From a virus, in IMG/VR virus record IMGVR_UViG_3300044961_000305, positions 1-39,008 of that record: a DNA stretch of 39,008 bases. One strand, written 5' to 3'. The notes under the pieces were generated by a model. It had not been told where the DNA came from, did not search any database, and worked only from the letters and a program-made list of their open reading frames with translations. Shown here in pieces: positions 2,353-16,705 of this stretch (its first letter is position 1; every line of letters starts with the position of its first letter). The translations under genes and the position numbers were made by a program.

Positions 2353-3501
2353 TCATTCTCCCTTGGCTTTGGCGCGGTTGGCGCGGGCGGTTTCCAGTTT
2401 GGCGATGGCCTGGTCGGCCATCTTTGTCGTGCGCGGCAGGTAGGTTTCCATGATGCGGCTGGTGGCGTCGATGCTGTGGCCGCTGACGGCCGCCACTTCG
2501 GGCACGGTGGCGCCGGCTTCGGCCAGGCGGACGACGCCGGTGCGCCTAAAGTCGCGGAATTGCAGGCGGGCCAGTTCGGCGGCATCCGGGTGCAGCTCCA
2601 TGGCCTTGGCCCTGGTGTGGCGGAAGGCGTGGGACCAGGCGTTTTCGGTGTAGGGCAGCCCGGTGGCCTCGTTCACCAAAATCGTGGCGTGGTTGTGGGT
2701 GGGAAGATAAGCATCCAGGGCGGCGGCCAGTTCGGGCAACGCGCGGACCTGGATCAGCTCGCCAGTTTTGGACTGGTGGAAGGTGAAGCGGCCCTGATTG
2801 TAGCTGGAGCGCAGCATCAGCCGCACATCGGTGGGCCGCTGGGCCAGGTGTGCGGCCATCATCACGCCCACGGCGACACTGGGGCGGCCGAGGCCAAGGG
2901 CGGTGTCCATCAGGGCGTCCATGGCCCGGTCCGACCACACGGCGGCCCGCGCCCCGGTGCCCATCAGCTTGGGCTTTTCCGCCGGGTTGATGGTGATTTC
3001 GCTGAAGTTGTCCACCCCAAAGGCATAAAGCGTGCGGATCATGGTGACCAGGTGGTTGGCGCGGGATGGCGTGCGGCGGTAAAGCTGCTGGTACAATGCC
3101 TGGACCCGCTGGCGGGTGATGGCGGCCATGGGGGCGTCGCCCGCCCATTGGGCGATGACTTTGAGCAGCACCAGATAGCCCTTGCGGGTGTCGGCCGCCA
3201 GGCCCGTGAAGCGGGGGGACGCGGTGTAGGCATCGATGAGGGCCTGGACGCTGCCGGCGGCCACGGGCTGGCCCGGCGTGCCGGGGGTATCTTCGCCCTG
3301 GCGCCAGGCGTCCAGGCGGGCGTTTTGGGCTTCCGCGGCGGCCATGGCGGCGGGCAGCCCCAAGAAATTGCCGTCGGTGTCTTTGAGCGCGAAGCCGGTC
3401 CAGCCCAGGGCGCGGAGCTTGGCGCTGGGCTGCCAGAAACAGCGGGTGGACCCGGCCTTGCCGGGCTTGATGACCAGATGACGGATCTTCAGGGTGGCCA
3501 T
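2353..3501 (-). CDS. int: Tyrosine recombinase / phage integrase
   Basis: A 382-residue site-specific recombinase that should insert the phage genome into the host chromosome and help excise it. Catalytic residues can be placed: Arg222 in AAHLAQRPTDV, Lys245 in HQSKTGE, Arg319 in FRDFRRTG, His342 in VSGHS and the nucleophile Tyr354 in METYLP. The usual first His of the HxxR box is Arg316 here (R-D-F-R), a variation seen in some integrases. Residues 80-180 look like the SAM-like core-binding domain. The ATG at 3501 was chosen because the frame upstream runs through the tRNA gene. The start lies 25 bp from the 3' end of a tRNA-Leu on the same strand, the usual place for attP. Confidence 0.93.
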   Translation of the reverse strand: MATLKIRHLVIKPGKAGSTRCFWQPSAKLRALGWTGFALKDTDGNFLGLPAAMAAAEAQNARLDAWRQGEDTPGTPGQPVAAGSVQALIDAYTASPRFTGLAADTRKGYLVLLKVIAQWAGDAPMAAITRQRVQALYQQLYRRTPSRANHLVTMIRTLYAFGVDNFSEITINPAEKPKLMGTGARAAVWSDRAMDALMDTALGLGRPSVAVGVMMAAHLAQRPTDVRLMLRSSYNQGRFTFHQSKTGELIQVRALPELAAALDAYLPTHNHATILVNEATGLPYTENAWSHAFRHTRAKAMELHPDAAELARLQFRDFRRTGVVRLAEAGATVPEVAAVSGHSIDATSRIMETYLPRTTKMADQAIAKLETARANRAKAKGE

Positions 3502-3525
3502 GGGGCGTGGCTCCTTGGTGCTGCG

Positions 3526-3614
3526 TGGTGCCCCCCGCCGGAGTCGAACCGGCACATCGGTTGCCCAATAACGGATTTTAAGTCCGTTGCGTCTACCAGT
3601 TCCGCCAGGGGGGC
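3526..3614 (-). tRNA. tRNA-Leu (UAA), complete, with encoded CCA
   Basis: A full class II tRNA is present on the - strand. It has a 7-bp acceptor stem (GCCCCCC at the 5' end, GGGGGGC at the 3' end), discriminator A and encoded CCA at 3528-3526. The D-arm is of Leu type (TGGCGGAACTGGTAGAC), the anticodon stem ACGGA/TCCGT has loop CTTAAAA (anticodon TAA), the long variable arm folds as a hairpin, and the T arm is GCCGG-TTCGACT-CCGGC. It lies immediately upstream of int on the same strand, so it is both a likely working tRNA and the likely attachment-site target. All conserved positions look intact. Confidence 0.93.
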
Positions 3615-3630
3615 ACATTGCGGCGCGGGC

Positions 3631-4499: not shown

Positions 4500-4840
4500 G
4501 CGGGTGTCCTTTCGGTGGTGGTTATTTTGCTGAATTCGCCCATGTCGTAGGGCGTGCAGTTGGCGTTGGCCAGGGCATAGGCGGTGAGGTTGTGCGCCTG
4601 GGCAATTTGGGCGATTTGCGGCCGCAGATCGGGGTGCAGGCGGTGCAGATCGGTGAGCGCCGCCGCCAGCCCGGCGACGTAGGCATTTTGCGCGGCGATG
4701 AGCACGGCGGCGTCGAGGGCATTGTCGATGGCGTGGATCACTGCGCCGGACGGCAGGTCATCGGCGCGCACCCTGGCCCAGAAATTATCCCGGGCCACTT
4801 TCATCAGGCGGGCGCGTGATTGTTTGGGAAGTTGGGTCAT
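4496..4840 (-). CDS. Unknown 114-aa helical protein
   Basis: Starts MTQLPKQSRARLMKVARDNFW, with the ATG overlapping the stop of the DUF5131 gene (ATGA). The middle is a long alanine-rich helical region (DAAVLIAAQNAYVAGLAAAL), followed by a histidine-rich stretch (LHRLHPDLRP). No transmembrane pattern strong enough to call. Coupled on both sides. Function unknown. Confidence 0.65.
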   Translation of the reverse strand: MTQLPKQSRARLMKVARDNFWARVRADDLPSGAVIHAIDNALDAAVLIAAQNAYVAGLAAALTDLHRLHPDLRPQIAQIAQAHNLTAYALANANCTPYDMGEFSKITTTERTPA

Positions 4841-5862
4841 GCGGTTTCCTTTTGGGGGCTGGAAGTTATGGGAAGCTGGTTATATTCGCGGCCGTCCAAC
4901 AGGCGGCCGGTCATCGATTTAGTGGCCCGCAGGTAACTGCCGCACAGCGGTTTCCATAGCTGCCCGTCTGCCCTTCGCTCGCCGGCGGGCAGGTAATCGC
5001 CCCACTGCTTAAAGAAGAACGCCACGCCTGCGGCGCTGCATTGATCGCGGATGTCGTGCGCCCAATCGGGAAATATGGGCCGGGCACCGGGGCCGCTTTC
5101 GCCGCCGACGATGACCCAATGAATACGATTGGGGATTGTGCGGACGGGCGTGCCCAGAAAGTCCATCCCTTCGCCTGTCAAGGCGTTGATGCGTTCGCAA
5201 CCCTTGATGGCCATGGTGTCTATGTTGGTCAAATCCACCGGCCCCAGCATGGGTTCCAGGCTGATGCCGCGCACGGCGGCGGGGGTAGCCAGTAATTGCG
5301 GGATGCGCGCGTTGGCGCTGGGCTGGTCTTCCACGCTAGTCATGGCCCACACGTTGCGCAGCGGGCGGTTCCACGGCTGAAACGCATCGTTTTCGTGATT
5401 GATCTGGCCTGGCGCAAATCCCATGCCGCCCCGACTCTGGGCGCAACTGATGCGCCAATATGTGGCGTCATTTACCAGATAATCCCGCATCCGTTCCGGC
5501 CGCTTAGTCAGCACTTGGTAGGTGTGCTGCGGCGTCAGCGCCATCACCGCGAATACCTGATCGATCCAGTCATCGGGTACCCATTCGGCGAACAGGTCGG
5601 TCATGCTGCACACAAAAACCATGCGCGGTTTTTTCCAGCGCAGCGGGGCCAGCAGGGTTTTTTCGTCCAGGAAGATATCGACCATGGCGCGGTCTTGGGC
5701 GGCGTAGCGGATGGGGTTTTTAAAGCGCGGCTGAAAGGTTTCGGCGTAGCAGTTGCGGCAGCCATCGGACACCTTGACGCAATAATGCCCCGTGCCGCCG
5801 GTGGCCTTGTTGCGGGCGCGGATGGGGTTCCAGGTTTTGTCCGTCCATTCGATTTTGGTCAT
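4837..5862 (-). CDS. DUF5131 / phage Gp37-Gp68 family protein
   Basis: A 341-residue protein starting MTKIEWTDKTWNPIRA, the hallmark N-terminus of the Gp37/Gp68 (DUF5131, PF07505) family. A cysteine cluster CVKVSDGCRNCYAE follows at about residues 28-41, similar to the CX6CX2C arrangement of that family, in which an iron-sulfur or radical-SAM-like fold has been proposed. Later blocks such as MVFVCSMTDLFAEWVPDDW, QVLTKRPERM and WVIVGGESGPGARP also fit the family. The substrate and role are unknown to me. It is commonly carried in phage accessory operons. The ATG at 5862 overlaps the upstream stop and is preferred over an upstream in-frame ATG inside the neighbouring gene. Confidence 0.88.
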   Translation of the reverse strand: MTKIEWTDKTWNPIRARNKATGGTGHYCVKVSDGCRNCYAETFQPRFKNPIRYAAQDRAMVDIFLDEKTLLAPLRWKKPRMVFVCSMTDLFAEWVPDDWIDQVFAVMALTPQHTYQVLTKRPERMRDYLVNDATYWRISCAQSRGGMGFAPGQINHENDAFQPWNRPLRNVWAMTSVEDQPSANARIPQLLATPAAVRGISLEPMLGPVDLTNIDTMAIKGCERINALTGEGMDFLGTPVRTIPNRIHWVIVGGESGPGARPIFPDWAHDIRDQCSAAGVAFFFKQWGDYLPAGERRADGQLWKPLCGSYLRATKSMTGRLLDGREYNQLPITSSPQKETA

Positions 5863-6215
5863 ACCTGCGCCTGCCTTTCGATAATCAGCGGATCGTATTT
5901 TTGCGCCGCCATGTTCCAGGTGGAAATCACCGTGTCGCCCTGGCCGTAGGCGTGGAGGTAGCGCCGGGCAATGGCGAAGCAGGTTTCCAGGGTGCGCAAA
6001 GACCCGCCTTCGATGACGCGGGCGGTGCGGCCCATGGGGTGGCGTTGCAGCAGCGGGCCCCATTCGCACGCCGGGCCGTGCAAGGCATGGCTGATGTGCA
6101 TGATCCAGCCATCGCCATCGTAGTTGATGGTGACGGTGAGCGCGTCATCGGCATATTGAAAATCCCATTCGGCGATGGGGATGCGGCAGTGCATTTCGTG
6201 GGGGAGCTGTGTCAT
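5859..6215 (-). CDS. Unknown 118-aa protein
   Basis: Starts MTQLPHEMHCRIPIAEWDF, with an ATG that overlaps the stop of the HTH gene upstream and a stop that overlaps the DUF5131 start, so it sits in a chain of coupled genes. It has a beta-rich first half (ADDALTVTINYDGDGWIMHISHAL) and a helical second half. No known domain. It may function with DUF5131, but only proximity supports that. Confidence 0.65.
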   Translation of the reverse strand: MTQLPHEMHCRIPIAEWDFQYADDALTVTINYDGDGWIMHISHALHGPACEWGPLLQRHPMGRTARVIEGGSLRTLETCFAIARRYLHAYGQGDTVISTWNMAAQKYDPLIIERQAQV

Positions 6216-7542: not shown

Positions 7543-7571
7543 AAAGTAACCGTATAAGTTACCAATGTCAA
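7543..7571 (-). promoter_or_regulatory. Leftward early promoter (PL-like)
   Basis: On the - strand, TTGACA (7571-7566) and TACTTT (7548-7543) are separated by 17 nt. The whole spacer is filled by a 17-bp operator (7546-7562), so a bound repressor would block polymerase. Transcription would enter the gene at 7463. Confidence 0.65.
7546..7562. promoter_or_regulatory. Operator O1 (GTAAC-N7-GTTAC)
   Basis: GTAACCGTATAAGTTAC is a perfect 5-bp inverted repeat with a 7-bp centre. It matches operator O4 in 15 of 17 positions when reversed and lies between the -35 and -10 of the leftward promoter. Confidence 0.8.
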
Positions 7572-8441: not shown

Positions 8442-8780
8442 CTATGCCGCCCGGTTTTCGTTGGCCGGGGTGCAGAAAGCCACCAATAGCCGGAACATTT
8501 TTTCCCGCTCGGCGGCGTCCAGGCCCCGGAAAAGGTTGATCAGCTCGGTTTCCATGTCGTTCAGGCGGTAGGGGTTGTCCTCCTCCACCAATAGATCGGC
8601 GACGGTGCATTGGAAGGCGTCGGCGATCTTGCGCATCCAGCGCAAATTCAGCTCCACCTTGCCGATTTCGATCCGCCCGACCTGTTGTTTGGATGTGCCG
8701 ATCCGGCTGCCCAGCTCCTCCTGGGACATATCCATCATGGTACGGATTTCACGTATCCGGTTCGGTAGATACTCGGTCAT
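8442..8780 (-). CDS. CI-like repressor (HTH_3)
   Basis: A 112-residue DNA-binding protein. Residues 5-60 form a Cro/CI helix-turn-helix: LPNRIREIRTMMDMSQEELGSRIG, TSKQQVGRIEIGKVELN, ADAFQCTVADLL. A helical C-terminal part (LINLFRGLDAAEREKMFRLLVAF) is probably used for dimerisation; there is no LexA-type peptidase domain. The ATG at 8780 lies 10 bp from operator O3, giving a very short leader with only a weak ribosome site. It is flanked by operators O3-O5 and faces a divergent Cro-like gene, the standard lysogeny-switch layout. It is the best candidate to bind the GTAAC-N7-GTTAC sites. Confidence 0.85.
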   Translation of the reverse strand: MTEYLPNRIREIRTMMDMSQEELGSRIGTSKQQVGRIEIGKVELNLRWMRKIADAFQCTVADLLVEEDNPYRLNDMETELINLFRGLDAAEREKMFRLLVAFCTPANENRAA

Positions 8781-8790
8781 GCCGCCAATT

Positions 8791-8807
8791 GTAACAATAT
8801 CCGTTAC
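8791..8807. promoter_or_regulatory. Operator O3
   Basis: GTAACAATATCCGTTAC is a perfect GTAAC/GTTAC inverted repeat with a 7-bp centre. It lies 10 bp upstream of the repressor start codon, suiting autoregulation. Confidence 0.8.
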
Positions 8808-8837
8808 ATTCGCTAGCACCGATATAGTTCCTTTCGC

Positions 8838-8867
8838 TTGACATTGCATAACTTATACCGTTACCGT
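8838..8867 (+). promoter_or_regulatory. Rightward early promoter (PR-like)
   Basis: TTGACA (8838-8843) is followed at 17-18 nt by a weak -10 (TACCGT at 8862-8867). The -35 and spacer closely resemble the leftward promoter (TTGACATTG, then TAACTTATAC), and operator O4 fills the spacer in the same way. The -10 is poor, so the exact start is uncertain. Confidence 0.5.
8848..8864. promoter_or_regulatory. Operator O4
   Basis: ATAACTTATACCGTTAC fits the GTAAC-N7-GTTAC pattern with one arm mismatch. It lies inside the rightward promoter and begins 57 bp from the start of O3. Confidence 0.75.
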
Positions 8868-8908: not shown

Positions 8909-8925
8909 GTAACGGCGGCGGTTAC
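8909..8925. promoter_or_regulatory. Operator O5
   Basis: GTAACGGCGGCGGTTAC is a perfect palindromic pair of arms with a GC-rich centre. It starts 61 bp after O4 begins and 8 bp before the Cro-like start codon. It could act as a roadblock or an autoregulatory site. Confidence 0.75.
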
Positions 8926-11225: not shown

Positions 11226-11633
11226 ATGACTACCCCGACCCGCGCCGCCCCATATCTTTCCCCGAAGCCCCAACCCTTTGATATTCAGGCAAATATTCAG
11301 GCGCGCGGCTGTTACGCTGTTACGCCGCTGTTACACTCCACCGTTACGGATAACCAATTGAAATATAACGATTGTTACGCTGTTACGCTGTTACATGCGC
11401 GCGCGTCACGTGGGAGCAAGGGGCAAGGTGTATCCCGTACGCGCGCGTGCGCGAACCGTAACACCGTAACAAGGGTTAAAGGGAGAGAGATATATATAGA
11501 TAATTCAATGGCTTATCCCTGTTACGCTGCCCGTTACGGTGGCGTTACGGTGCGTAACAGCGGCGCTGCCTTGGCCGGGCAAATTGGCCTTAAGGCGCTG
11601 AAAAGAATAAAAAAAGGGGTGAATAATGGCTGA
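11226..11633 (+). CDS. Doubtful ORF across the origin region
   Basis: A 135-codon frame is open from 11226 to 11633, but it translates the iterons into repeats of CYAVT and has no ribosome site. Its composition is unlike a folded protein. It is probably fortuitous, although its end overlaps the start of the gene at 11626. Listed only so that the open frame is on record. Confidence 0.15.
   Translation: MTTPTRAAPYLSPKPQPFDIQANIQARGCYAVTPLLHSTVTDNQLKYNDCYAVTLLHARASRGSKGQGVSRTRACANRNTVTRVKGREIYIDNSMAYPCYAARYGGVTVRNSGAALAGQIGLKALKRIKKGVNNG
11311..11558. other. Probable replication origin with GTTAC iterons
   Basis: GTTAC starts at 11311, 11319, 11330, 11343, 11374, 11382, 11390, 11521, 11533 and 11544, and the reverse GTAAC at 11458, 11466 and 11554. 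That is 13 pentamers in 248 bp, where about half of one is expected by chance. Several are spaced exactly 8 bp (unit GTTACGCT). They flank an AT-rich segment near 11475-11515 that includes GATATATATAGATAATTC. Iterons around a melting region, just upstream of a primase and helicase, match origins initiated by phage- or island-encoded helicases. No initiator has been shown; the helicase at 13461 is the first candidate. Confidence 0.72.
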
Positions 11634-12114
11634 AGAAACGGGGGTGGCGAAGGTTTTGGACGAGATCGTCCCGCGCGGGCCGCTGATCCCGGCGGAACAG
11701 CTGGACATGCTGGCCGATGAGATGCCGGGCACCACGGCCTTTGATCGGGTCCAGGCGGCCAAAGGCCGGGGGCGGCCAAAGGGCAGCGCGAACCGCCGCA
11801 CCCGCGACTTTGCCGAATACCTGCTGGCCCGCTATCCCGACCCGCGGGAAGTTATGGCGCAGACCTATGCCCGGCCGGTGGATGAGCTGGCCGCGGAACT
11901 GGGCTGCACCAAGCTAGAGGCATTCCAGCTGCAACAGCGCGCCGCCGCTGAGCTGGCGCCCTACCTGGCCAGCAAGATGCCGGTGGCGGTGTCGGTCAAT
12001 CATCGGGGCATTGCGCTGGTCATTCCGGGGATGAATTTCGACCAGGCGGCCACGGTTGAGGAAGCCGCCGCCATGCTGGAAATAAGCAATGAAAATCAAG
12101 GGGATAGCGAATGA
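11626..12114 (+). CDS. Putative small terminase-like protein
   Basis: A 162-residue protein with a ribosome site AAGGGGTG six nt before the ATG. A basic motif GRGRPKGSANRRTRDFAEYLL lies around residues 47-67. It is followed by a helical region (LGCTKLEAFQLQQRAAAELAPYLASKMP) and a C-terminal beta part. The GRPKGSxNRRT sequence and the following LL-x-YP-x-P are often seen in phage genes near terminase, and a TerS-like packaging recognition role is possible. Against this, primase and helicase genes lie between it and TerL, so a replication-associated DNA-binding role is also plausible. Confidence 0.5.
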   Translation: MAEETGVAKVLDEIVPRGPLIPAEQLDMLADEMPGTTAFDRVQAAKGRGRPKGSANRRTRDFAEYLLARYPDPREVMAQTYARPVDELAAELGCTKLEAFQLQQRAAAELAPYLASKMPVAVSVNHRGIALVIPGMNFDQAATVEEAAAMLEISNENQGDSE

Positions 12115-12422
12115 CCAATTTTCGAGTTGGACAATGGCTGTCTGACAGTTGCGAAGAAGCCATTTCATTTCAAGGGCTTGTGCGGATTGTCAGAGGGATT
12201 GAACATCCTTCTGCGCCCACCGGCCAGGCCATGGCCTGGCCGGCCAGCCCGGCGCCGCCGCCGCGCGCGGCCAGGGGGGGGGCCCCCCCCTTTTCAGCCG
12301 TCGCTCATCCCCCCTGCCTGTCGCCCGAGGGTCTCAAAAATTCTGGAAGCCGGGATTTTTACCCCGCGAAAATTTTACGGTCTTTTCCGCGTGGGTCGGG
12401 GGTGGGGAGCCAGTGGCCATGA
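12111..12422 (+). CDS. Uncertain 103-aa ORF
   Basis: It has ATGA overlaps at both ends, which favours a real gene, but the middle is low-complexity Ala/Pro coded by a GC-rich tract containing a run of nine G and eight C (12274-12290). Slippage or sequencing error there would change the frame. The N-terminal part (TNFRVGQWLSDSCEEAISFQGL) looks more natural than the rest. An overlapping frame 12127-12579 is an alternative reading. No family recognised. Confidence 0.35.
   Translation: MTNFRVGQWLSDSCEEAISFQGLVRIVRGIEHPSAPTGQAMAWPASPAPPPRAARGGAPPFSAVAHPPCLSPEGLKNSGSRDFYPAKILRSFPRGSGVGSQWP
12274..12290. repeat. G9C8 homopolymer palindrome
   Basis: Nine G residues followed directly by eight C, then TTTT. 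Such a tract is rare in coding DNA. It can fold into an extremely stable hairpin with a short T-run and is prone to length change. It could act as a terminator or attenuator before the primase gene, or be a sequencing trouble spot. Confidence 0.7.
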
Positions 12423-13477
12423 GCCAGCTTATTTCCATCGCCGAAATTGCCCGGCTGCTGGCGGAGCGGACGCCGTCCCTGGTGGCCGACCTGCTGCCCA
12501 ATGGCATTCGGGAGGGGGCGGAATGGCGCGTGGGATCGTTGGCGGGGGAACCGGGCCGGTCGATGGCGGTGCATCTTAGCGGATCGCGGGCGGGCGTGTG
12601 GAAAGATTTTTCGGGTGGGGAAAGCGGCGACGCCCTGGACCTGGTGGCGGCCGTGCTGTTCGGCAACGACAAGGCGCGGGCGGTGGAATGGTCCAAGCGC
12701 TGGCTGGGGCTGGATGACCGTGATCCCCGCGCCATTGCCCAGGTGCGCCGCAAGGCGGCCAAATTGGCGGAAAAGGCCGATGCGGACCGGGAACGGGAAG
12801 AAGCCAAAATCCTGGTGTCGGCACGGCGGATTTGGTTGACGGCCAAGCGCGACATCCGGGGCACCCCGGCGGAAGACTATTTGCGGGCGCGGTGTATCGA
12901 TGTGCGCCGTCTGCCCAAGGTGCCGGGCGCGCTGGCGTTCCATCCTGCTGTTTGGTGCAAGGAGGTGCAGGGCACGCTGCCGGCGCTGGTGGCGGGGATC
13001 TTCCGGCGCGGCGAGCTGGTGGGTGTGCACCGCACCTACCTGGACCCGGCCCGGCCGCAAAAGGCGCAGCTGGTGGACGCCAAGTTGTCACTGGGCCGCT
13101 ATCTGGGCGGCTGCATCCCGTTGACGCGGGGCATCACCCGGGTGCGGTGGAATGATTTGTGGGACCAAGAAATTCCGGAAAGCATCGTGCTGGCGGAAGG
13201 CATCGAAACGGCGTTGTCCGTGGCGCTGGTGCTACCGCGCCGCCGGGTGGCGGCGACGGTGAGCCTGTCCAACATGGCGTCGGTGGAGCTGCCGCCGTGC
13301 ATCCGGGAAGTGATCCTGGCCCGCGACAATGACACGGCCAAGGCCGCCATCCGGGGCTTTGATCGCGCCGTCGCGGCGCACCAGGAAAAGGGCCGCAAGG
13401 TCCGCATCGCCGCGCCCGCCCAGGGCAAGGATTTTAACGATTGGTTGAGGGAGTTAGCGCGTGACCGGGTTGCCTGA
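12419..13477 (+). CDS. Toprim-domain primase
   Basis: A 352-residue protein that should synthesise primers for phage DNA replication. The N-terminal half (HLSGSRAGVWKDFSGGESGDALDL) is the zinc-less counterpart of a primase binding domain, and the middle is a charged coiled region. The Toprim part carries LAEGIETALS (invariant Glu near residue 259) and LARDND (acidic pair near residues 302 and 304). The ending GKDFNDWLRE is typical of Toprim_3-type phage primases. The ATG at 12419 overlaps the previous stop; an in-frame GTG lies 6 nt upstream. It overlaps the helicase start by 17 bp. Confidence 0.85.
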   Translation: MSQLISIAEIARLLAERTPSLVADLLPNGIREGAEWRVGSLAGEPGRSMAVHLSGSRAGVWKDFSGGESGDALDLVAAVLFGNDKARAVEWSKRWLGLDDRDPRAIAQVRRKAAKLAEKADADREREEAKILVSARRIWLTAKRDIRGTPAEDYLRARCIDVRRLPKVPGALAFHPAVWCKEVQGTLPALVAGIFRRGELVGVHRTYLDPARPQKAQLVDAKLSLGRYLGGCIPLTRGITRVRWNDLWDQEIPESIVLAEGIETALSVALVLPRRRVAATVSLSNMASVELPPCIREVILARDNDTAKAAIRGFDRAVAAHQEKGRKVRIAAPAQGKDFNDWLRELARDRVA

Positions 13478-15239
13478 CAAAAATCCAATTGCCGAGGCCA
13501 TCGAGGGCGCGCCGGAAGCGCCGCCGAAGTCCGGGCCAAAATCGCCGAATAAGAAAAACGGCCATGGCGTTGATGACCTGCTGCATGTGCCGGATGACTT
13601 GCCGGTGCAGCCGTTGGGCTGCAATGCCGGGATTTATTATTACCTGGACGGCTTGTATTCGTTCCGCACGCTGGAAGCGCCCGAACATTCGCGGTCCAAC
13701 ATCATGAGCCTGTTCGCGGGCCATGAGGGTTATCTGCTGACAAAATATGGCCGCACGGACAAGCGCGGTTTTCACAACGGCGGCCTGCACACCGACATGG
13801 TGGCCAACGTGCTGATGGCGGCTTGCGCCGAGATCGGCACCATGGACCCGGCGGAACAGGTGCGCGGTGTGGGCGCTTGGACGGACAGCAACGGCGGACT
13901 GGTGCTGCATTGTGGCGATCACGTCTGGATTGATGGCGAGTTTAAAAAACCCGGCCGGTATGGCGATCATGTGTATCCAAGTTGTCCGGGCACGCTTCGT
14001 CCGGCGCGGGAGCCGCAAAAAAACGACGTGGCGGAAGAACTGCTGACGATCCTGAATACCTGGAACTGGCAATCACCGCTGCACGCCTATTTGACGCTGG
14101 GGTTCATGGCGCAAGGCTTTGTGGCGGGCGCGGTGCCGTGGCGGACCCACCTTTATGTGGACGGGGAAGCTGGATCGGGCAAGTCTACGCTGCAACGGTT
14201 GATCCGGGGCGTGTTTCATCGCTGGTGCCTGGACACCACGGACACCACGGCAGCGGCGCTTTATCAATTGATGCAGGGCCGCGCCCAGCCGGTGCTGATT
14301 GACGAATTCGAGCCGGGCGACAACCCCATGCGCAAACAGGCGACGCTGCAAGCGCTGCGCCAGGCGTCATCGGGCGGGCGGGTGAGCCGAGGGGGTGATC
14401 AGCATGTGGGCCGGACGTTTTCGGTACAATTCCCGGCGCTGTTGACCAGCATCGTGACGATCCCGTTGCCGCCCCAGGATGAAAGCCGGATCGTGCGTGC
14501 GCGGCTGGACCCCGTCCAACCGGGCACCATGGTGCCGAATTTATCGTTGGCGCGGTTAAGTGAGCTGGGCACCAAGCTGATGCGCCGGTTGTTGGATCAA
14601 TGGCCCAGGTTTGGCGATACCTTTGCCGCCTATCGCGGCGCGTTGCGGCAATACGCCGGGTTTGATGATCGTCTGCAAGATACCTATGGCACGCTGCTGG
14701 CGTGCGCGGACCTGGCCTTGAATGATTTCGCGCCATCGGGCGATGACCTGCATGATCTGGCCAGCCAGATTGCGGCGCTGACGGCGCCCATGCAGGCGGA
14801 AAAACTTTCAGACAACGCGCGCTGCCTGCAACACTTGCTGGATATGACCATCGATCGCGGCGCGGGTGTGCGCCGCACGGTGGCAAGCTGGCTGGTGGAG
14901 GCGCACGCGGATCTGTCCGTATCGAAAAGTAATCAACTGAATTACAACGTCGATAATACGCAACAACCGGCACAGGACGCACTGGCGGGCATCGGGCTGC
15001 GGCTGGTGGAAATCGCACCGGACATGTTTGGATTGTTTGTGGCCAACACCCATCCGGCGCTGACGCGGATTTACATGGATACCAGTTGGCCAGGCAAGGC
15101 CGGTGCGGCGGGCGCCTGGCGGGACGTGCTGCGGCGCATTCCTGGCGCGGTGGCGCATGGTCCCACCCGCCTGGGCGGCGCCATTCATCGCGGCACGTTG
15201 GTGCCGCTTAATGGCTTCATTCAGTGGTTTGAAAAATGA
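13461..15239 (+). CDS. P-loop replicative helicase / ATPase
   Basis: A 592-residue protein, GTG start behind GAGGGAG with 9-nt spacing. The N-terminal 200 residues form an unassigned domain like those found before ATPase modules in phage and island helicases (DUF927-like arrangement). The ATPase core has Walker A GEAGSGKST near residues 235-243 and Walker B PVLIDEFE near 277-284, followed by a sensor-like region (LTSIVTIPLPPQDESRIVRARL). Together with the upstream primase and iteron origin it probably unwinds, and perhaps recognises, the phage origin. Its stop overlaps the terminase ATG (ATGA). Confidence 0.82.
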   Translation: MTGLPDKNPIAEAIEGAPEAPPKSGPKSPNKKNGHGVDDLLHVPDDLPVQPLGCNAGIYYYLDGLYSFRTLEAPEHSRSNIMSLFAGHEGYLLTKYGRTDKRGFHNGGLHTDMVANVLMAACAEIGTMDPAEQVRGVGAWTDSNGGLVLHCGDHVWIDGEFKKPGRYGDHVYPSCPGTLRPAREPQKNDVAEELLTILNTWNWQSPLHAYLTLGFMAQGFVAGAVPWRTHLYVDGEAGSGKSTLQRLIRGVFHRWCLDTTDTTAAALYQLMQGRAQPVLIDEFEPGDNPMRKQATLQALRQASSGGRVSRGGDQHVGRTFSVQFPALLTSIVTIPLPPQDESRIVRARLDPVQPGTMVPNLSLARLSELGTKLMRRLLDQWPRFGDTFAAYRGALRQYAGFDDRLQDTYGTLLACADLALNDFAPSGDDLHDLASQIAALTAPMQAEKLSDNARCLQHLLDMTIDRGAGVRRTVASWLVEAHADLSVSKSNQLNYNVDNTQQPAQDALAGIGLRLVEIAPDMFGLFVANTHPALTRIYMDTSWPGKAGAAGAWRDVLRRIPGAVAHGPTRLGGAIHRGTLVPLNGFIQWFEK

Positions 15240-16705
15240 CGGCGTTGATGAAACAGCCCGCCGCCGGTCCGGTGGCCCATGCGTTTACCCGGTCACAGAA
15301 ATTTCTGACCGGGATCATGGGGCCCATTGGCAGTGGCAAAACCACGGGCTGCATCCAGAAGTGCATCTGGGCGGTGCTGTGGCAAAATCCCGGCCCGGAT
15401 GGCATCCGCCGCGCCCGCGTTGTGGTGGTGCGCGACACATATCCGAACCTGGACACCACGACGTTGCGATCCTGGCACGGGTGGTTTCCGCCCACCATCG
15501 GCCGCTGGGTGGGTGACAGCCCCCGTCTGCACGAACTGACATTTGATTTCAAGCGGCCGGGTGATTGCCGGTTGGAAATGGTGTTCGTGGCCATTGGCGA
15601 CAAGCGGGCGGAAGATGTGCTGCGCGGGCTGGAGCCCACGGCCATTTGGCTGAACGAAGCGGACCTGTTGAGCAAAGAGGTGCTGGATTACGCCCGCGGC
15701 CGGGTGGGCCGTTATCCAGGTGTGTCATTGGGCGGCTGCGCCTGGTCGGGCATCTGGTGTGATTTCAACGCGCCGGACATCGATAATTATTGCTATGACA
15801 TTTTCGTGGAAAACCCCACCGAGGACACGGAATTCTTCCGCCAGCCATCGGGCTTTTCGCAGCAGGCGGAAAACGTGCACAACCTGCCGAAGAATTACTA
15901 CACGCGCCAGGCGGCCGGGATGCCGGAAGATAAAATCCGCCGCCTGATCATGAACGAATTTGGCTTCACGCGGGACGGCCAGCCGGTCTACCCGGAATTC
16001 CAGGACACGCTGCATGTGGCGCGGGAACCGCTGGTGGCTCATCCTGACTTGAAACTGATTGTTGGGATTGACGGCGGATCGACACCGGCCGCGGCTTTTC
16101 TGCAGAAAGATACACTAGGGCGCTGGCGTTGTTTGGATGAGATGGTGGTTTTCCCCACCAAAGAAGCAATGTTGACGAGCATGGGGCCGACGCGGTTTGG
16201 TGGTATGCTGAAGCAAAAGCTGCAAACAGAGTATGGCCATTTTTATGGCCATCAGGACCGGCTGGAGATTTGGGCCGACCCGGCCACCGGCGCCGGGGCG
16301 GATGTGGAGGCGGGCGATTTAAGCTGGCGGCTGATTGTTCAGCGCGAGACAGAGGTGCCGGTGCGGCCGACATACACCAACGATCCGACGATCCGGCAGG
16401 AAGCAGTGCGCGGGCCGCTGACGCGGATTGTGGAAGGTAAGCCGGGATTTCTGTTGTCGCCCAAGTGCAAAATTTTGCGCAAAGGATTTAACAGCGGCTA
16501 TCACTATCGCCGGATCAACCTGGTGGGCGCTGGTGGGTACATCCGGCAGGAAGATAAGCCCAACAAAAACGAATACAGCCATCCCCATGACGGATTGCAG
16601 TACGGCATGCTGGGCGGCGGTGAAGGCCGTGTGGCGCTGCATGGCCAGAATTGGACGCCCCACGTTCCGCAAGTGGACACAGATTATGCCTATTTTGGAG
16701 GGTGA
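15236..16705 (+). CDS. terL: Terminase large subunit
   Basis: The 489-residue DNA-packaging motor. The ATPase domain has Walker A GPIGSGKTT at residues 29-37 and Walker B TAIWLNEADLL at 135-145 with catalytic Glu141. The C-terminal RNase H-like nuclease has acidic residues at Asp279 (GIDGGSTP), Asp348 (EIWADPAT) and Asp452 (SHPHDGLQYG). It cuts concatemeric phage DNA and pumps it into the prohead through the portal. It lies directly after the helicase gene, which is unusual. No clear small subunit adjoins it; the gene at 11626 is the candidate. Confidence 0.93.
   Translation: MTALMKQPAAGPVAHAFTRSQKFLTGIMGPIGSGKTTGCIQKCIWAVLWQNPGPDGIRRARVVVVRDTYPNLDTTTLRSWHGWFPPTIGRWVGDSPRLHELTFDFKRPGDCRLEMVFVAIGDKRAEDVLRGLEPTAIWLNEADLLSKEVLDYARGRVGRYPGVSLGGCAWSGIWCDFNAPDIDNYCYDIFVENPTEDTEFFRQPSGFSQQAENVHNLPKNYYTRQAAGMPEDKIRRLIMNEFGFTRDGQPVYPEFQDTLHVAREPLVAHPDLKLIVGIDGGSTPAAAFLQKDTLGRWRCLDEMVVFPTKEAMLTSMGPTRFGGMLKQKLQTEYGHFYGHQDRLEIWADPATGAGADVEAGDLSWRLIVQRETEVPVRPTYTNDPTIRQEAVRGPLTRIVEGKPGFLLSPKCKILRKGFNSGYHYRRINLVGAGGYIRQEDKPNKNEYSHPHDGLQYGMLGGGEGRVALHGQNWTPHVPQVDTDYAYFGG

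Follow-up and report, generated by a model that had tools for sequence, protein, structure and literature searches.

The stretch at positions 11311-11558 of the window, an IMG/VR virus record of 39,008 bases, is very probably an iteron replication origin of the P4/SaPI type, to which the helicase encoded from position 13461 would bind through its C-terminal domain, probably in the form of two hexamers. We observed an array of short repeats, an array geometry that is conserved among related phages, its nearness to AAA+ helicase genes, and a covariation of the fourth repeat base with residue 575 of the helicase; we infer that the helicase binds, that its hexamers are loaded and the DNA is melted, and that replication proceeds in both directions. 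An iteron-type phage origin served by an encoded helicase had already been proposed in the initial annotation, and this proposal is now supported by comparative evidence, namely the dyad layout, the AAA+ helicase neighborhood, the covariation at base 4 and a match to P4.

The presence of an integrase gene (2353-3618, match to phrog_1) together with T7-like head-tail adaptor and tail genes in the window indicates a temperate podovirus-like phage. A DUF5131 gene (phrog_2045; 4837-6069, minus strand) lies between the integrase and repressor-type genes. Three palindromes of the form GTAAC-N7-GTTAC (7546-7562, 8791-8807 and 8909-8925) are located around a CI/Cro-type HTH gene (Table 1); these palindromes look like repressor operators, with a half-site that is common to the putative origin iterons, and were no general feature among the relatives.

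The array comprises thirteen GTTAC/GTAAC pentamers within 248 bp, in agreement with the original count, which is far above chance expectation (Poisson tail of about 10^-18); when pentamers of any sequence were screened for clustering, this was the strongest cluster in the window. The complete 39-kb window contains 42 such pentamers versus 28 +/- 5 expected from shuffles. The exact 8-bp tandem repeats described earlier correspond to the 8-mer GTTACGCT, which is found four times (at 11311, 11374, 11382 and 11521), twice in direct tandem. The sites are arranged in four near-symmetric groups with the orientations ++++, +++, -- and +++-, and the inner-right position, a doublet in the window, is occupied by two or three sites in most relatives. 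The resulting 7 + 6 sites, compared to 6 + 6 in a typical relative, are counted against the origin interpretation. The AT-rich core that had been placed around 11475-11515 is indeed AT-rich (11471-11520), but it constitutes one of two flanking spacers, while the true center of the array is GC-rich. An open reading frame spanning the array (11226-11633) was without a family match and is probably not a gene. Four site groups with AT-rich spacers occur in the window, and AT-rich spacers also in its relatives, in keeping with the sets of multiple short iterons around AT-rich DNA that characterize P4/SaPI-type origins. A plasmid origin of the RepA type, with direct-repeat iterons of 17-22 bp and a RepA/TrfA-type initiator, was rejected because the sites here are of 5-8 bp and in both orientations, and no RepA-type gene was present among the scanned replication genes of the window. 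GC skew, which the initial annotation had named as a check, did not turn at the array in the window.

Table 1. Coordinates of the iteron array and of associated genes in the window.
Feature	Position	Strand	Remarks
CI/Cro-type HTH gene	8442-8849	minus	
Outer-left iteron group	11311-11347	+	four GTTAC (11311, 11319, 11330, 11343)
Left AT-rich spacer	11348-11373		26 bp, GC 0.27
Inner-left iteron triad	11374-11394	+	8-bp pitch (11374, 11382, 11390), directed at center
Center	11395-11457		63 bp, GC 0.70, alternating purine-pyrimidine (CGCGCG-type) tracts
Inner-right iteron doublet	11458-11470	-	8-bp pitch (11458, 11466)
Right AT-rich spacer	11471-11520		50 bp, GC 0.34
Outer-right iteron group	11521-11558	mixed	four sites (11521 +, 11533 +, 11544 +, 11554 -)
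Small AT-hook protein (GRGRPKGSANR), TerS-like by position	11626-12114	+	in relatives usually just before large terminase gene
Primase, DUF7146 + Toprim_3	12413-13477	+	
AAA+ (D5/SF3-like) helicase, proposed self-loading initiator	13461-15239	+	phrog_21086
Codons of C-terminal beta-hairpin, residues 564-582	15150-15206	+	covarying I575 codon 15183-15185
Large terminase subunit (TerL)	15236-16705	+	phrog_2; control in covariation test

The helicase gene begins about 1.9 kb downstream of the array, which lies ahead of the TerS-like gene, the first gene to follow it. Both replication genes that had been recognized nearby were recovered, the Toprim primase by matches to DUF7146 and Toprim_3 (E 9e-25 and 5e-17) and the P-loop helicase by a match to phrog_21086 (E 3e-71). 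The product of the gene at 11626 obtained no Pfam, NCBIfam or fold identification and, for its relatives, only an unnamed PHROG; its predicted structure is all-helical with a low pTM, an AT-hook is present, and we refer to it as TerS-like on the grounds of synteny only. In the mechanism that we propose, the array would represent two inverted half-origins around the GC-rich alternating center, each consisting of an inner and an outer site group with an AT-rich spacer between them. The C-terminal beta-hairpin domain of the AAA+ helicase would read the pentamers, most likely with one hexamer per half (6 + 6 sites in a typical relative), and the two hexamers would melt the AT-rich spacers and then depart in opposite directions, with the Toprim primase providing the primers.

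Relatives were fetched by protein without regard to the motif, yielding 80 loci by helicase and 61 by TerS-like protein; a related-locus search with the window helicase alone returned nothing. In most of the loci fetched by protein, an array of short repeats separates the helicase gene from the TerS-like gene, with a repeat spelling that varies by phage. After dereplication, 93 phages possessing an array, a helicase, a TerS-like protein and a TerL were compared, a handful of which came from the motif-selected set. A grouped array with a center and two spacers was found in all 93, typically with about 12 sites. The pentamer follows the form GT+NNN in about 25 kinds (GTTAC, GTTCC, GTTAG, GTTGC, GTTCT, GTGTC, GTAAG, GTCTA and others), a GT start that is built into our naming of iteron types and is thus not independent of this choice. 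Across the 93 phages the spacers mostly measure 35-40 bp (median GC 0.47 on the left and 0.38 on the right), and the center has a median length of 59 bp and a GC of 0.64, versus 0.66 for the locus. In 67 of them its purine-pyrimidine alternation lies at or above the 95th percentile of random segments from the same locus. The clearest layouts consist of dyad-symmetric triads (3+3 and 3+3) with a pitch of 8 bp inside and about 11 bp outside, a symmetry that two helicase rings would be expected to require. The inner sites face away from the center in some phages and toward it in others, including the window; the polarity of GTTAC itself is ambiguous since its reverse reads GTAAC, with A as base 4 in both readings.

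Origins of the P4/SaPI type lie near the initiator helicase gene and typically 3' of it, a placement that is seen in many relatives and in other helicase families. In the window and in L231, L256, L265 and L313 the array lies just 5' of the TerS-like gene even though the helicase gene is located downstream, which we count against the origin interpretation. Among phages with a window-type helicase, the array directly follows the primase gene in Bdellovibrio phage phi1422, just precedes it in Acinetobacter phage Acjo_20 and lies about 1.7 kb after it in Serratia phage MQ-4. A like array of GTTAG repeats is found in Pseudomonas phage ZRG1 (L208, 12199-12498) in a gene-free gap away from the primase gene, and one of GTGAG repeats directly 3' of the helicase gene in Synechococcus phage MinM1 (L211, 7679-7897).

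Since the iteron differs between relatives, the protein that reads it should change alongside. At the level of whole proteins, the nearest neighbor had the same iteron for 43 of the 93 phages when chosen by helicase, for 35 when chosen by TerL and for 31 when chosen by TerS-like protein, a modest predictive power that is suggestive but too weak to decide on the reader. A column-by-column test on the helicase, TerS-like and TerL proteins of the 93 phages used only distantly related pairs. The top column for iteron type across all three proteins was helicase residue 575 (576 in stop-to-stop frame numbering), with a z of 13.3 (highest value among 1000 permutations of the labels, 11.5), and stricter identity cut-offs gave permutation p values of 0.003-0.005; such permutations remove shared ancestry incompletely. 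The association of this residue with base 4 of the iteron was particularly strong (mutual information 0.69 bits, z 15-19, versus about 9 for the next column in any protein). Base 4 is accompanied by Lys/Arg in 15 of 27 cases, or by Ser/Gly, when it is C, by Asn/Gln/His in 9 of 12 when it is T, by small or hydrophobic residues of the Ala/Thr/Val type in 27 of 34 when it is A, and mostly by Gly/Ser or small residues when it is G. The window, with Ile575 and base A, fits this pattern. On a tree built without the helicase C-terminus, Lys/Arg and base C require nine changes each. Of 30 pairs of sister phages, 12 differ at base 4, and 8 of these also differ in residue class, as do 4 of the 18 with a constant base. 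Loci outside the 93 agreed in part (GTTCC with Lys, GTTCT with Ser, base A in only about 9 of 15, the last of which we count against the reading). Taken together, the covariation points to the helicase as the reader of the iterons and to a presumed contact between residue 575 and base 4.

In the predicted helicase structure (AlphaFold model, mean pLDDT 90.6), this residue begins the second strand of a beta-hairpin in the C-terminal part of the protein (564-571/574-582). The nearest solved folds identified by Foldseek were AsfvPrimPol, poxvirus D5/E5, NrS-1 and PriRep1 (7pds, E 2.8e-7), the last of which is a SaPI protein. An HMM of the helicase C-terminus gave no significant recovery of the C-terminal domains of VapE, DUF5906, NrS-1-like or DUF927 helicases, and a common recognition domain across these helicase families is thus not established.

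Similar features are found in phage P4, whose alpha protein binds iterons via its C-terminal domain. The annotated ori type 1 repeat of P4, TGTTCACC, fits GT+NNN as GTTCA, and the relative L281 has the identical GTTCACC. By pentamer count, P4 ori1 consists of four sites, 35-37 bp of AT-rich DNA and two sites, and each of the two crr repeats of two sites, 37 bp and four sites, so that site groups are parted by an AT-rich spacer of 35-37 bp at all three; moreover, crr lies just beyond the 3' end of the gene for the alpha primase-helicase. However, P4 has three half-units at two places about 4.7 kb apart (ori1 and the double crr), whereas the phage studied here fuses two as an inverted pair within 250 bp, and primase and helicase form a single protein in P4 but two separate proteins here. 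P4 therefore appears to use singly a half-unit that the present lineage would join in inverted pairs.

Likewise, the origins of SaPIs and other PICIs are located 3' of rep and have their iterons in two sets that surround AT-rich DNA (PMC6092414), and the C-terminal domain of Rep recognizes the iterons, apparently as two hexamers (PMC7581432). The fold of the window helicase matches PriRep1; in contrast, the array here has four site groups, two AT-rich spacers and a GC-rich center. In SCCmec elements the AAA+ self-loading helicases Cch and Cch2 read 5-bp direct repeats just downstream of their own gene by a C-terminal domain (PMC7581432). Cch-type DUF927 helicases similarly adjoin GTTAC arrays, although at the Cch2 site the iterons number only three and read AAGTG, and the primase is a different one. 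The origins of SV40 and papillomaviruses, with T antigen and E1, respectively, possess inverted pentamer-type sites that load a double hexamer. The inverted arrangement of pentamer-type sites provides an analogy only, as these are eukaryotic viruses with an N-terminal origin-binding domain (PMC7581432). A literature search for GTTAC iterons, the coverage of which excluded most subscription journals, found nothing on such an array.

Arrays of this kind also occur beside other helicases. When viral contigs were scanned for GTTAC triplets spaced at 8 bp, at least 119 stretches were found, most of those listed with 7-14 sites per 300 bp in DNA of 30-68% GC, and in many of the matches listed a GTTAC triad stands opposite an inverted triad. 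Among the matches listed, the neighboring helicases of these motif-selected loci belong to the VapE, DUF5906/D5, DUF927 and NrS-1-polymerase-like primase-helicase families, in one case with the Cch HTH_56 domain on a DUF927 helicase, and many of the arrays follow just after the helicase stop codon. When DUF927 loci were collected irrespective of the motif, 34 of the 77 with enough downstream DNA had an array, mostly of GTTAC, directly 3' of the helicase gene; it was not found beside about half of the DUF927 loci and lay elsewhere in the genome in one subgroup. Several DUF927-helicase phages carry a pair of GTTAC arrays separated by about half the genome (L044/L066, L086/L182, L114/L179 and L115/L180 in G006, G020, G021 and G038), one between neck and scaffold genes and the other in the early region, possibly two origins. 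In Pam3-like cyanophage-type and other contigs (L008, L010, L102 and about 30 loci like them) a GTAAC array with another arrangement directly precedes a Terminase_2-like gene, and no AAA+ helicase of that sort was seen nearby. Finally, a scan of genome contigs for inverted triads returned prophages and, on contigs from Bacteroidota, Ignavibacteria, Acidobacteria and Verrucomicrobia, several simple tandem arrays of GTTACnnn for which no helicase was found; dense tandem arrays in inverted pairs (L127, L128, L129, L132, L139, L140, L150 and L155, from Ignavibacteria, Alistipes, Limisphaerales, Kapaibacterium and Acidobacteria) were on contigs in which no helicase was recognized.

The persistent adjacency of the array to the TerS-like gene might indicate that the origin overlaps with a recognition region for the AT-hook TerS-like protein, which would couple replication to packaging or late transcription. 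Such a dual role, which is compatible with the origin interpretation, is possible but rather unlikely. It would be in line with the AT-hook motif beside AT-rich spacers and with the top-10 covarying columns of the TerS-like protein, which exceeded all 200 permutations. However, the TerL control columns exceeded the permutations too (p 0.045), suggesting shared ancestry as the likely cause of the TerS-like signal, and the adjacency may merely mark the boundary between early and late genes.

Because a TerS-like gene adjoins the array, a packaging site is a serious rival and in fact the strongest one, which the initial annotation had not considered; it was first suggested by the motif-selected loci. 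In this case the array would be a terminase pac/cos site, with the 11626 protein binding the pentamers, the DNA wrapped on a protein ring, to which the 8-bp pitch could be suited, and the large terminase cutting nearby. In most of the lineage the array directly precedes the TerS-like gene, even after changes in gene order; this location and the cyanophage-type arrays, near which no such helicase was seen, are consistent with packaging, but we consider this explanation improbable. Dyad symmetry is unexpected for a directional packaging site, the array of the DUF927 phage L091 is 3' of the helicase with the terminase genes kilobases away, and some phages have two arrays rather than one site per genome. 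Moreover, the strongest covarying column is in the helicase rather than in the TerS-like protein, and P4, with matching iterons and spacer, is annotated as having replication ori/crr sites. An operator cluster for the phage repressor, to which the palindromes with the same half-site flanking the repressor region might point, is most improbable of all, given an array geometry without the N7 palindrome, the lack of enrichment of iteron-matched palindromes outside the arrays of relatives (5 versus 13.6 in the control) and the P4 and SaPI parallels that favor replication.

Beyond the origin itself, the data can tentatively be read as defining a class of phages with a single origin chassis (about 12 sites, a dyad and fixed spacers), the address of which is rewritten by the helicase hairpin, with 12 sites that would each seat the DNA-binding domain of one subunit in a double hexamer; we regard this as a plausible reading with slightly less than an even chance of being correct. 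As part of it, and equally tentatively, residue 575 would read base 4 in a simple code that on the opposite strand pairs Lys with G, Asn/Gln with A and Ala/Thr/Val with T. If true, each phage would possess a private origin, and co-infecting phages could make less use of it. For most tailed phages in metagenomes the origin has yet to be mapped, and the array layout described here is recognizable from sequence alone. An organization that was described as peculiar to PICIs (PMC6092414) would thereby be extended to numerous full phages whose AAA+ helicases differ. The covariation offers a testable, nearly one-residue recognition code for self-loading replicative helicases, with a natural set of about 25 specificities, and suggests how related phages may keep their origins separate within one cell.
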